17,191 nucleotides of DNA from Microcaldota archaeon (GTDB lineage Archaea > Micrarchaeota > Micrarchaeia > Micrarchaeales > Micrarchaeaceae), in the NCBI GenBank assembly GCA_030039935.1, contig JASHUQ010000108.1:1-17191 (forward strand), written 5' to 3'. Within the stretch, counting starts at the first letter, position 1, and the number at the start of each line of letters is the position of its first letter. The notes beneath the pieces were generated by a model. The model did no database searches. It worked only from the letters and a program-made list of their open reading frames with translations, and was not told where the DNA came from. Shown in pieces: positions 11,582 to 13,683 of this stretch. The translations under genes were made by a program, and so were the position numbers.

Positions 11582-12007
11582 TCACTTATCTCTTAGGAAT
11601 TCATAATGAAGCCAATTAGAAAAATTCCCGTTGTATTCAACGCTATCAGCTCTCTGTTTTTTTGCCTTCTCTAGAAGCTCGATCTTCAGCCTTCTATAGC
11701 TCAGGGATTCGAATTGCAGCCTATGCAAATCCTTGCGCCTTTTGTGCCTTGCCTCTTTTATCCTGCTGTCGAATTGGGATAGCATATCGCTTGTGTCCTT
11801 AAGCCTCCACAGAATCTGGAACATTTCCTTTGTGACTTTCGGCCCTCCTGTTCCATCATAAACAAGAGATAAGGTTGCGTCTGAACTTAGCCTTTGCTTC
11901 CATTCCTGCACTGTCATTCTTTCGATTTGCTGTTCGCTCCTTATTGGTACTTCCGGCATATCCGCATCTGCAGCATTGGGCAAAACTCGTTCTACCATAA
12001 GAGGCAT
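11582..12007 (-). CDS. Hypothetical protein, charged helical C-terminus
   Basis: I do not recognise this 141-aa protein. It has no signal peptide or membrane segment. Residues about 60-120 are strongly charged and likely helical (RIKEARHKRRKDLHRLQFES, then LLEKAKKQR), suggesting nucleic-acid or protein binding. Two in-frame ATGs exist, at 12007 and 11998. The TATA-like ATATAAATATTT on the minus strand is centred near 12022, which predicts transcription starting almost at 11998 (leaderless). The N-terminus may therefore be MVERVLPN (138 aa). It lies just outside the tRNA-derived repeat at 12038-12064, reading away from it. Confidence 0.6.
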   Translation of the reverse strand: MPLMVERVLPNAADADMPEVPIRSEQQIERMTVQEWKQRLSSDATLSLVYDGTGGPKVTKEMFQILWRLKDTSDMLSQFDSRIKEARHKRRKDLHRLQFESLSYRRLKIELLEKAKKQRADSVEYNGNFSNWLHYEFLRDK

Positions 12008-12037
12008 TTCGCGCCTAAATATTTATATCTAGTTTTT

Positions 12038-12064
12038 ATGGGCCCGGGGAGAATTGAACTCCCG
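12038..12064 (-). repeat. Distal att-like copy of the tRNA-Val 3' end
   Basis: These 27 bases are identical to 13002-13028. Read on the minus strand they give a T-stem/loop with TTCAATT, the acceptor 3' strand CGGGCCC, and A73. The 5' half of a tRNA is absent: the bases that follow on the plus strand (12065 on) share no anticodon or D-arm with the tRNA-Val and contain no GGGCCCG. It is thus a truncated tRNA fragment. Confidence 0.85.
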
Positions 12065-12097
12065 ATCCCTCTACCCTACGTCGAGGTTTTGGAGTGT

Positions 12098-12128
12098 TTT
12101 ATATGCTAGAGTACGAAAAGCATATAAA
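12098..12128. promoter_or_regulatory. Inverted repeat over the antitoxin promoter
   Basis: TTTATATGCT (12098-12107) and AGCATATAAA (12119-12128) are exact reverse complements with an 11-base spacer. The right arm overlaps the probable TATA box (TATAAATA, 12123-12130), about 30 bases before the antitoxin ATG. Toxin-antitoxin operons of this class repress themselves at such sites, so this is a likely operator. Confidence 0.55.
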
Positions 12129-12159
12129 TAAGAAAGTAAGATAATATTACTGTGATAAT

Positions 12160-12426
12160 ATGGCCGATGAAGTAACCATAATGAGCGTTAGGGGACAGGT
12201 TGTAATACCGAAGGAGGTAAGGAAGAAGTTGCAACTTAAGCCAAAGGACAGGCTTATAGTATATGGTGAGGAAGACACCATAATAATGAAACGCCTTAAT
12301 CTGCCCCAGCTCAAGGAGACCTTTGAGAAGATAAAGATGATTTCAAAGGAGCGCGATGCTAGGCACGGAAGGCTTAGCCAGAAGGACATAGATAGGGAGG
12401 TTTCCGCAGTAAGACATGCGCGCTAG
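12160..12426 (+). CDS. vapB: AbrB/SpoVT-type antitoxin (VapB-like)
   Basis: Antitoxin of 88 aa. Residues 3-46 are the swapped-hairpin DNA-binding domain: VTIMSVRGQVVIPKEVRKKL followed by LKPKDRLIVYGEEDTIIMKRL. The C-terminal half (47-88, LKETFEKIKMISKERDARHG onward) is the charged flexible part that normally wraps the toxin. It starts at ATG 12160 with its own TATA box and an inverted repeat upstream. The toxin gene begins 3 bp after its stop, the usual antitoxin-toxin order. The pair sits between two copies of a tRNA-Val 3' end, which suggests it arrived with a mobile element. Confidence 0.92.
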   Translation: MADEVTIMSVRGQVVIPKEVRKKLQLKPKDRLIVYGEEDTIIMKRLNLPQLKETFEKIKMISKERDARHGRLSQKDIDREVSAVRHAR

Positions 12427-12429
12427 GTT

Positions 12430-12840
12430 GTGCCTATGGTGCGTGTAGTTCTTGACACTAATATCTTAGTCTCTGGCTTGCTGCACAACGGCAAGCCTAG
12501 GAGACTGCTTGAGTTAGCGGTGCAGGGGAAGATAGAGATTGTATCATCGGTAGAGATGATAGAAGAATTGGGAGAAGTCCTTTCAAGAGAGAAGTTTGGA
12601 CTACGTAAGGAAGAACAGGCAATAATGCTAGACTTTGTGATAAGAGTTAGTAGAATAACTGTTCTTAAAAGCAAATTTAAGGCAGTTAAGGAAGACCCTG
12701 ATGATGACACTGTGATAAACACAGCATACGATGGGAATGCAGATTACATAGTATCTGGTGATGGGAAGGTTTTAGGACTGAAGCAATTTGGTAAGATATT
12801 GATAATGAAGGCTGATGACATGCTTAAGCTAGTGGAGTGA
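12430..12840 (+). CDS. vapC: PIN-domain toxin (VapC-like, COG1569-type)
   Basis: Putative Mg-dependent ribonuclease toxin of 136 aa. The N-terminal VVLDTNILVSGLL (6-18) gives the first catalytic aspartate (Asp9). Glu45 or Glu46 in VEMIEEL is the second acid. DPDDDTVINTAYDGNADYIVSGDGKVL (89-115) gives the remaining acids (Asp92/93, Asp111). The wording LLELAVQGKIEIVSS and ADYIVSGDGKVLGLKQF matches the 'putative toxin, PIN family' group more than small classic VapC. The start is GTG 12430 or ATG 12436, which gives MVRVVLDTN; either keeps the domain. It is partnered with the AbrB-type antitoxin just upstream. The RNA target cannot be told from sequence. Confidence 0.9.
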   Translation: MPMVRVVLDTNILVSGLLHNGKPRRLLELAVQGKIEIVSSVEMIEELGEVLSREKFGLRKEEQAIMLDFVIRVSRITVLKSKFKAVKEDPDDDTVINTAYDGNADYIVSGDGKVLGLKQFGKILIMKADDMLKLVE

Positions 12841-13001
12841 TCTTTTAAGGCATTCTGTCTTTTCTGGTGTAAAGGCTCTATCAATTTCTTCATAAAGCTC
12901 CTCTTTTAGCTGTCGCAGTTCGGATTTGGCAAGAATTCTAGTTTCTTTTTTGGGTTTGTTTGGTGCTTCTGAACTCTGACTTTGTCGTTGTAATTTCCAG
13001 A
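12829..13001 (-). pseudogene. C-terminal remnant of an unidentified gene, truncated at the tRNA junction
   Basis: On the minus strand a frame stays open through this whole stretch and stops at TAG (12829-12831). It reads about 55 residues with a protein-like charged pattern, including KPKKETRILAKSELRQLKEE and then LYEEIDRAFTPEKTECLKRS. It has no ATG, GTG or TTG start: going upstream it runs into the tRNA-Val gene and meets a stop there. Its end overlaps the toxin gene by 12 bp. The best reading is the tail of a gene whose front was lost when the element joined the tRNA. Elements of the SSV type split their integrase gene this way, but I cannot identify this piece. It could also be a chance open frame. 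Confidence 0.35.
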
Positions 13002-13028
13002 ATGGGCCCGGGGAGAATTGAACTCCCG
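13002..13028 (-). repeat. Proximal att-like repeat inside tRNA-Val
   Basis: 27-bp copy identical to 12038-12064. It covers one base beyond the discriminator, A73, the 3' acceptor strand, the T-stem and T-loop of the intact tRNA-Val. The match stops at once on either side (13001 and 13029 differ). Confidence 0.85.
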
Positions 13029-13074
13029 GTCTTTACCTTGTGAAGGTAACGTCTTGCCATTCGACCACGGGCCC
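13003..13074 (-). tRNA. tRNA-Val (anticodon CAC)
   Basis: Decodes GUG valine codons. Read on the minus strand: acceptor GGGCCCG pairs with CGGGCCC; the D arm begins GTC and ends GAC with the conserved GG in its loop; anticodon stem TTACC/GGTAA holds loop TTCACAA, giving anticodon CAC; the variable loop is AGACC; T-stem GGGAG/CTCCC holds loop TTCAATT; discriminator is A. Total 72 nt, no intron, CCA not encoded. An AT-rich TATA-like stretch (about 13096-13108) lies 22-34 bases upstream. The 3' half is the target copy of the 27-bp repeat. Confidence 0.95.
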
Positions 13075-13134
13075 GCATTAATGTATCTGTGTCATAAAAT
13101 TAATATATTCTCTTGGCAATATTCACTTGATGCA
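13075..13134. promoter_or_regulatory. Shared divergent promoter of tRNA-Val and cobalamin adenosyltransferase
   Basis: Only 60 bp separate the tRNA 5' end from the adenosyltransferase ATG. There is one strong AT-rich element, AAATTAATATATT (about 13097-13109). It is centred about 28 bases from the tRNA start on one side and about 33 bases from the ATG on the other, so it may serve as TATA box in both directions. The role is inferred from spacing. Confidence 0.45.
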
Positions 13135-13683
13135 ATGACAGTGTATTATACTGGAAGAGGGGACAATGGAGAGACATCTGTTATGGGAAAGGGAAGAGTC
13201 AAGAAAGATGACCCTATAGTAAAGGCAATCGGAGATATTGACGAGCTGAACAGCGTTGTTGGCGTTGTGATTGCAAACACAGATGACGAAAAGGTAAACC
13301 GGAATCTAAGAATAATACAGGATAGGCTTTTCGTTGTCGGCGCTGAGATCGCATCATCTTTAGAAACTGGGATAAAGCCAAAGTCTTCGATAAATGAAAA
13401 CAGCGTAAAGGAGCTAGAAAAAGAGATAGACGAGCTTGGTAAGTCTCTTCCAGAACTGAAGAAGTTCGTTCTTCCAAATGGGTGTGTGTCCAGCTCTTAC
13501 CTGCATCTCGCAAGGTCTGTTGCAAGGAGGGCTGAAAGAAGCGCCGCATCGCTGTCGAAAAGCAACAAGGTCAATCCAGATATCCTCAAATATCTAAACA
13601 GGCTTTCATCCTTCTTCTTCGCCGCAGCTTTGTACATGTACAAGAAAAACAACATAAAGGAAACAAATCCTACTTATTCCTAG
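13135..13683 (+). CDS. Cob(I)alamin adenosyltransferase, PduO/MMAB type
   Basis: Transfers the adenosyl group of ATP to cob(I)alamin to make coenzyme B12. TGRGDNGET (6-14) is the N-terminal ATP-binding motif (TRTGDxGxT in relatives), followed by KDDPIVKAIGDIDELNSVVG (24-43). FVLPNG (111-116) and LARSVARRAERSA (125-137) are the second conserved block, then LNRLSSFFFAAALY (154-167). The 182-aa length is normal. The frame is open back to 13018, but that part lies inside the tRNA-Val gene, so ATG 13135 is the start, with a TATA-like element about 30 bases before it. Its stop TAG overlaps the convergent scpB stop in a shared CTAG. No B12-dependent enzyme is in the window. Confidence 0.92.
   Translation: MTVYYTGRGDNGETSVMGKGRVKKDDPIVKAIGDIDELNSVVGVVIANTDDEKVNRNLRIIQDRLFVVGAEIASSLETGIKPKSSINENSVKELEKEIDELGKSLPELKKFVLPNGCVSSSYLHLARSVARRAERSAASLSKSNKVNPDILKYLNRLSSFFFAAALYMYKKNNIKETNPTYS

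Follow-up and report, generated by a model that had tools for sequence, protein, structure and literature searches.

The suicidal integrases described so far carry the Phage_integr_3 domain (PF16795) and are traced to one single event; DPANN and Nanoarchaeota go unmentioned in the accessible text of that work (PMC8371274). In Dehalococcoides, tandem islands at ssrA are bounded by the 3′ end of the RNA gene and short direct repeats, and 15 islands without an integration module were proposed to be cis-mobilizable, moving with their neighbours by accretion (PMC3146451). Cryptic integrated elements of Thaumarchaeota span 2.6 to 98 kb, and a VapBC pair is reported there in one provirus-like element (PMC6563490). 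The word "tRNA" is absent from the accessible main text of the paper on archaeal integrons (PMC9668308). Within the open-access literature searched, we found no report joining Micrarchaeota, an integrase and a tRNA gene, or DPANN, an SSV integrase and tRNA genes; absence in print is not claimed.

The window analysed here, the whole 17,191-nucleotide stretch of contig JASHUQ010000108.1 (Microcaldota archaeon, GCA_030039935.1), comes from a genome (G000 below) of 711,578 bases in 118 contigs that is 88% complete. One of its loci is very probably the relict of a small autonomous mobile element that was integrated in the 3′ end of tRNA-Val(CAC) by site-specific recombination. The features of this locus are the following.

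13003 to 13074, minus strand: intact tRNA-Val(CAC), the anchor, on the attL side (ARAGORN and Rfam, 69.6 bits)
13002 to 13028, minus strand: 27-bp direct repeat, copy within the 3′ end of tRNA-Val(CAC) (sequence comparison)
12829 to 13032, minus strand: integrase remnant of 67 codons plus stop, with an open frame that leaves the tRNA copy (extent determined by hand)
12430 to 12840, plus strand: predicted vapC-like PIN toxin gene, 136 aa from the GTG at 12430 (PF13470 PIN_3, E 1.4e-22)
12160 to 12426, plus strand: predicted vapB-like AbrB/MazE antitoxin gene, 88 aa (PF04014 MazE_antitoxin, E 2e-9)
12111 to 12159, plus strand: sequence before vapB that is kept in the vapBC loci of two relatives, G043 and G056 (homology from about 12110; query 529/530-1245 of 11582-13683)
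12039 to 12098 (approximate), minus strand: 20-codon open remainder in the integrase frame, without Met, ending in the orphan repeat copy
12038 to 12064, minus strand: 27-bp direct repeat, orphan copy, on the attR side, in the same orientation and 964 bp from the tRNA end

The 27-base 3′ end of tRNA-Val(CAC), CGGGAGTTCAATTCTCCCCGGGCCCAT, is repeated exactly at 12038-12064, so that the perfect direct repeat of the first-pass annotation, placed 964 bp downstream in the same orientation, is borne out (identity 27/27, 97% across 30 nt; 964 bp from start to start). The repeat boundary lies one base beyond the tRNA discriminator, and the identity between the two copies stops at the repeat edges. An intact tRNA gene with a far copy of its 3′ end in the same orientation is the arrangement of a tRNA-integrated mobile element, and between the copies sit vapB and vapC, convergent with the tRNA gene. 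Archaea also have split tRNAs, and the orphan copy might instead be a tRNA gene or a split-tRNA half, decayed or functional in place, with vapBC lying between two tRNAs by chance. It does retain the T arm and acceptor strand, and by eye a tRNA-Ile(GAU) on contig C5 matches it at 26 of 27 positions. No tRNA body lies upstream of it, however, and it is not recognisable as a second tRNA: Rfam scores a 21-nt T-arm stretch only (11.8 bits, E 8.68), by which a second or split tRNA at this place is largely refuted. Two tRNA-Ile(GAU)-like genes occur in this genome (G000:C89:2936-3005, L050, and G000:C5:246-320, L022), with similar-looking neighbouring sequence by eye; the C89 copy has an additional stretch near the D arm and is missed by ARAGORN.

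The wider occurrence of such copies bears on this alternative. We surveyed 126 tRNAs of four genomes (21 of the 37 tRNAs in G015, 36 of 40 in G004, 39 of 40 in G007 and 30 of the 33 Rfam hits in G000; G016 was left out) for exact copies of the tRNA end that are 11 nt or longer, stop no more than 2 nt short of the last base and lie up to 8 kb downstream. Over 820 kb of downstream sequence, 26 copies were found on the same strand and none on the opposite one, with a chance expectation, estimated arithmetically, of about 0.6 of the 26; upstream (446 kb), the single same-strand copy was a true tRNA pair and there was no opposite-strand copy. Downstream copies occur at 7/30 tRNAs in G000, 6/39 in G007, 6/36 in G004 (5 with the 3′-most 11 nt only) and 0/21 in G015, the true pair of the latter being excluded. 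The 3′-most 11 nt alone gave 25 same-strand copies, one a true tRNA pair, versus 0. Shorter words reduce the strand excess (8 nt, 35 same versus 13 opposite; 9 nt, 28 versus 4), and 11-nt words taken 12, 24 and 36 nt inside the tRNA gave 15/4, 4/0 and 3/0, a recurrence of inner words on the same strand that stems in part from the T loop common to tRNAs and from the length of many copies. One of the 26 copies, at tRNA-Cys of the own genome, is complete enough to be called a tRNA by ARAGORN, if not by the Rfam search, and would favour tRNAs in place; this far copy (L039/L199, G000:C93, +669) is a nearly complete tRNA-Cys 3′ half of 45 nt at 91% identity. Against a tRNA in place at the orphan copy stand the break of identity at the repeat edges, the strand bias of 26 to 0 and the integrase debris adjoining tRNA-Val (see below), and we regard this reading as very improbable. 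More improbable still is a chance repeat or an assembly artefact, for which the 118 contigs and 88% completeness of the assembly might speak: 27 bases are identical, and the same arrangement is found in three genomes of the genus as well as in many elements of other genomes, some on contigs of hundreds of kb, which refutes it; chance is also rejected by the strand counts.

A relict of an integrated element is further indicated by the frame that starts inside the tRNA copy and whose end overlaps the 3′ end of vapC. Residues 1-46 of this remnant (about 13032-12895) correspond to the N-terminal part of an integrase and residues 43-67 (about 12906-12832) to its C-terminus. In searches against 89 integrase frames, the former match the first 48 residues of a G109 integrase frame that lies at a tRNA, with 46% identity (E 1.7e-5), the match outside the tRNA-derived part including KKETRILAKSELRQLKEEL versus KKKTRILEKSELEELKTDL, and the latter match many integrase C-termini, with E down to 5e-5; tblastn of the locus gave E 1.6e-6 and 1.3e-5. 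With an HMM of the 89 frames, searched against three sequences, the C-terminal half reached E 1.5e-6, and the N-terminal half alone was insignificant (E 0.08-0.09). The N-terminal half is thus recognised via few relatives, at 46% for the best pairwise match and with a match that partly overlaps the tRNA, and it calls for caution, since tRNA sequence alone can yield such matches (at 4/10 control loci). The remnant is without the catalytic R, HxLRH and Tyr motifs, which as spelled occur in 88, 86 and 45 of the 89 frames, respectively. It is a gutted integrase whose catalytic core is gone. Its join falls on the residues KEEL, and we infer that the core was lost by deletion between short KEEL-encoding repeats. 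The 20-codon remainder at the far end has no Met, therefore the N-terminal piece of the integrase is lost as well, and at the tRNA side the 67-codon remnant is all that represents an integrase gene. Judged from the sequence, attL and attR are retained and the integrase is lost, as in a CIME. The first-pass annotation had seen only a VapBC-like pair and a truncated coding tail, with no integrase; the pair and the tail stand, and the absence of an integrase is wrong in detail, because the tail itself is the integrase remnant.

That annotation had proposed a search of the genome for a tyrosine integrase, and one complete PF00589 integrase was found, beside tRNA-Lys. The tRNA-Lys element has no long far copy, only 12 nt at +3248. 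Relatives of this integrase occur in 106/295 genomes, and 93 integrase hits come from the loci retrieved, which do not represent every one of these genomes. A same-strand tRNA 3′ end lies within 450 bp of the integrase in 69/93 hits; in 32/69 it recurs downstream on the same strand at 1.7-9.1 kb (some copies being only 13-15 nt), and no opposite-strand far copy was found at E ≤ 0.01 among the 69 loci. The remaining loci are not evidence of absence, because many end within a few kb. One of the elements, in G140 (L167), is a complete integrase element of 3,658 bp at tRNA-Val(CAC), the anchor type of the window. In 22/32 cases an open stretch of at least 20 codons with a Met stands before the far copy in the integrase frame (12 of the far-end pieces start M(K/E)LE), against 3/32 and 0/32 in the other two frames; the attachment site therefore most likely lies inside the integrase gene. 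In these 22 elements of the family the integrase thus appears split, with a far piece of only about 30 codons, and the window copy shows the frame leaving the tRNA and a far piece without Met. Seven integrases were scanned, five of them from elements counted as split, and all seven match PF00589, with one weak Integrase_1 and one weak fn3_5 match in addition; PF16795 was absent from the seven at E ≤ 0.01 and at 0.1. The published suicidal integrases carrying PF16795 and those scanned here PF00589, a second origin of the self-splitting ("suicidal") arrangement is suggested. A second T-arm stretch, 47 or 93 nt past the tRNA end, is found in the integrase start region at L090, L093, L097, L098, L100, L103 (tRNA-Glu) and L110/L128, and such stretches are perhaps traces of repeated target replacement.

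The cargo of the island has the ordinary VapBC layout, an AbrB/MazE antitoxin gene followed by a PIN toxin gene, the roles of both products being predicted. The start of vapC that agrees with relatives is the ATG at 12436 (the GTG is at 12430), and from its position the stretch 12111 to 12159 would hold the vapBC promoter. Relatives of VapC (E ≤ 1e-15) occur in 18/295 genomes; within the window's own family, the window's genome alone has one. Among named records, five of six relatives belong to Candidatus Micrarchaeota and one, at 50% identity, is a Nitrosotenuis record. The seven near vapC relatives (G150, G043, G056, G116, G039, G054 and G114; 58-76% identity) belong to a sister family of the same order; three lie beside integrase debris and three beside tRNAs. 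Both genes are intact, and in three pairwise comparisons raw pS was 0.63-0.76 and raw pN 0.08-0.13: the two are conserved as proteins against near-saturated synonymous sites. Eight vapBC loci were checked for integrase debris at E ≤ 1e-4 along with ten control tRNA loci, six of which had no integrase match and four had matches lying, as far as shown, on the tRNA. N- and C-terminal integrase pieces were found in L055 (G150, tRNA-Ile), an N-terminal piece of 134 residues in L060 (G054, tRNA-Ile) and two C-terminal pieces in L056 (G043). In L057 (G056), where vapBC adjoins an intron-bearing tRNA (Rfam; tRNA-Ile by eye), the match is confined to the tRNA. L058, L059, L061 and L062, the loci of G116, G039, G114 and G156, gave no debris at this threshold, some of these contigs being short.

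The comparison with close relatives that had also been proposed gave tRNA-Val(CAC) without island and without repeat at six loci, five of the genus and one of the family, where there is neither vapBC nor a tRNA-end copy of at least 9 nt within 1.5 kb. The tRNA-Val of G008 has no such copy within 8 kb, and that of G007 no 11-nt copy within 7.2 kb. In 17 tRNA-Val loci of relatives (L004-L020), cobalamin adenosyltransferase is close by in 12 and ScpB in 14, and the other side of the tRNA varies. G007 and G008, of the same genus, have one gene, unrelated to ORF 11582-12007, between tRNA-Val and the wHTH-GrpE genes, and no repeat; wHTH-GrpE genes also flank the window island. The former downstream sequence of tRNA-Val was not found past the orphan copy, nor an identical joined site among the relatives compared; the empty site is thus shown by its neighbours, and not by an identical joined sequence. 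Just past the orphan copy lies a 141-aa gene (11582-12007, minus strand) that matched only itself and one partial relative (46%, E 0.004) in 60 relatives, and it may belong to an older insertion.

Small size, which the first-pass annotation had thought far below that of usual elements, is to be qualified: 12 of the 26 intervals between tRNA 3′-end copies that three genomes of the genus contain measure less than 1.2 kb. A complete integrase was recognised in two intervals (G000 Lys and G007 Glu), a remnant in two (G000 Val and G004 Pro) and none in 22, scored on frames of at least 45 aa at BLASTP E ≤ 1e-5, so that short stumps like that of the window would be missed. The +287 end at tRNA-Ala of G007 resembles by eye an integrase N-terminal piece. 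The units of the own genome without a recognised integrase are the following.

tRNA-Ala, copies at +577 and +1069: NUDIX gene, then DUF4258/DUF2283 pair
tRNA-Glu, +706: hydrolase-like gene, below the Pfam cut-off
tRNA-Arg, +794: PIN gene and small partner
tRNA-Cys, +669: DUF2283 gene and partner
Contig C101: short unit, no Pfam match

These units raise the alternative, also named in the first-pass annotation, of a satellite: the window island would be a living integrase-less cassette, like a CIME or an integron cassette, excised and inserted in trans by an integrase encoded elsewhere. Besides the units ending in a tRNA 3′-end copy at tRNA-Ala, Glu, Arg and Cys of the same genome, this is favoured by two or three tandem copies at six tRNAs, by a vapBC unit of 946 bp at tRNA-Ala in G156 with a 12-nt 3′-end copy, by the complete PF00589 integrase that this genome, at 88% completeness, does contain, and by common sequence found across genomes before the tRNA copy at the ends of some integrase-less units.

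Two such end modules were followed among 295 genomes. Module B, of tRNA-Ala, was found in 17 at E ≤ 0.01, by matches of which the weakest are short and partial; in G104 and G093 it occurs in pairs, 0.8 and 1.1 kb apart, that enclose one main frame. It is an inverted repeat in which, over 13 ends, 90.9% of cells are paired and no pair is changed on both sides; for want of covariation, a folded attC-like hairpin was not adopted. One G007 contig has three more B sites (two are degenerate) at a distance of 8.5-10.5 kb from the tRNA and with core-looking genes between, an arrangement not accounted for by a simple tRNA array. Matches to module F occur in 16 of the 295 genomes; nine, the query included, align to the end, and eight of these nine end in CTCTCNGGGCT, which by reading of the sequence is the end of tRNA-Thr. 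One match lies 1.48 kb behind an ARAGORN tRNA-Thr. At L328 (G096:C9) module B follows directly after the tRNA-Ala gene itself, as if it were part of the attachment site. Both cassette ends of L270 (tRNA at G004:C4:412197; copies at +4274 and +6787) have a module in common, some 45 nt long, and by eye the copies of its hairpin differ by paired changes, GATGCGC/GCGCATC versus GATGTGC/GCACATC. A shared GGTTATATATA-like stretch, perhaps a promoter, was seen by eye shortly past several tRNA-end copies (L123 +4263, L252 +5471 and +6520, L118 +3532).

The end of the window island has no end module, however, and no 11-mer outside the tRNA part in common with the other ends compared. Moreover, the one complete integrase found in the genome sits at tRNA-Lys, whose 3′ end differs, and the window unit carries integrase debris and thus has an autonomous ancestor. 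For the window island we therefore consider movement in trans unlikely; for the other integrase-less units of this genome, a satellite moved by an integrase elsewhere is a live reading. The island is one of several small tRNA-anchored inserts in the lineage, some of which line up in tandem and may form a cassette system. A broader proposal would make tRNA genes of this Micrarchaeota-like order the platforms of an integron-like system, in which integrase-less cassettes of one gene or gene pair (cargo: toxin-antitoxin pairs, NUDIX, hydrolases) have a tRNA 3′-end copy as their end, in some preceded by a recombination module specific to the tRNA, and stand in tandem behind the tRNA. They would be moved in trans by a separate lineage of PF00589 integrases that became self-splitting independently of the SSV/PF16795 lineage, and the window island would be a cassette of this sort whose autonomous ancestor lost the integrase core. 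We put this forward tentatively, as conceivable and on balance doubtful.

The preferred reading of the locus, a relict of an autonomous element, entails the following history. An element with the attachment site inside its own integrase gene would have recombined with the tRNA 3′ end, giving a rebuilt tRNA with the larger integrase part beside it and, at the far end, a copy of the 3′ end with a short N-terminal piece. The split integrase would then have decayed, an in-frame deletion, probably between the short repeats encoding KEEL, taking the catalytic core, and the far start codon being lost. The vapBC pair may have been kept by selection, plausibly because its loss is costly (toxin-antitoxin stabilisation), and the tRNA, the integrase stump, vapBC and the orphan repeat would be what is left. 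The order of decay, the addiction effect and the present immobility of the island are our inferences, and so is its fixation by the toxin. Integration directed by the tRNA, as first annotated, is supported by the stump that starts inside the tRNA copy and by complete relatives at other tRNAs and at tRNA-Val(CAC) in G140; the idea of a decayed island gains from the dead integrase, the related complete elements and the tRNA of relatives without island.

The locus would then offer a worked example of a mobile element shrinking to a toxin-antitoxin pair, its integrase stump still readable, and it belongs to a lineage-wide pattern in archaea with sub-megabase genomes: small units anchored at tRNAs are numerous, and some of them stand in tandem and lack a recognised integrase. 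If these units move in trans, tRNA genes would serve as platforms for cassettes, and the gain of accessory genes by reduced genomes could be explained in this way. With the self-splitting PF00589 integrases, suicidal integration would have a second origin, contrary to the single origin proposed in print.

Compared with the SSV-type elements, those described here share the tRNA 3′ end as target and a split integrase whose larger C-terminal part lies beside the rebuilt tRNA; they differ in that the integrases scanned carry PF00589 instead of PF16795, the far piece is only about 30 codons and the window copy is dead (PMC8371274, as far as accessible). Integrons and CALINs, including archaeal ones, likewise have short cassettes without an integrase of their own, same-orientation arrays and a sequence that is conserved at one of the ends (here modules B and F), whereas here the anchor is a tRNA, the ends run into tRNA 3′ sequence and the own genome, searched for PF00589, gave one hit, at tRNA-Lys (PMC9668308, accessible text). 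The elements of Thaumarchaeota are similar as small archaeal integrated elements of mixed cargo, with VapBC in one; their sizes of 2.6-98 kb contrast with the units of 0.3-1.2 kb that are common here (PMC6563490, accessible text). The vapBC pair itself, in which the gene of an AbrB/MazE-type antitoxin immediately precedes that of a PIN-domain toxin, is ordinary. CIMEs and the Dehalococcoides islands are alike in being tandem, bounded by an RNA 3′ end and partly without integration module; there, according to the accessible text, one locus and serine recombinases are involved, and here tyrosine integrases, many different tRNA genes and units as small as about 0.5 kb that hold one gene or gene pair (PMC3146451). 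Tandem islands that lack integration modules have been described in Dehalococcoides (PMC3146451, accessible text), so the general kind is already known, and the variation seen here is one of size, host, anchors and integrase type.
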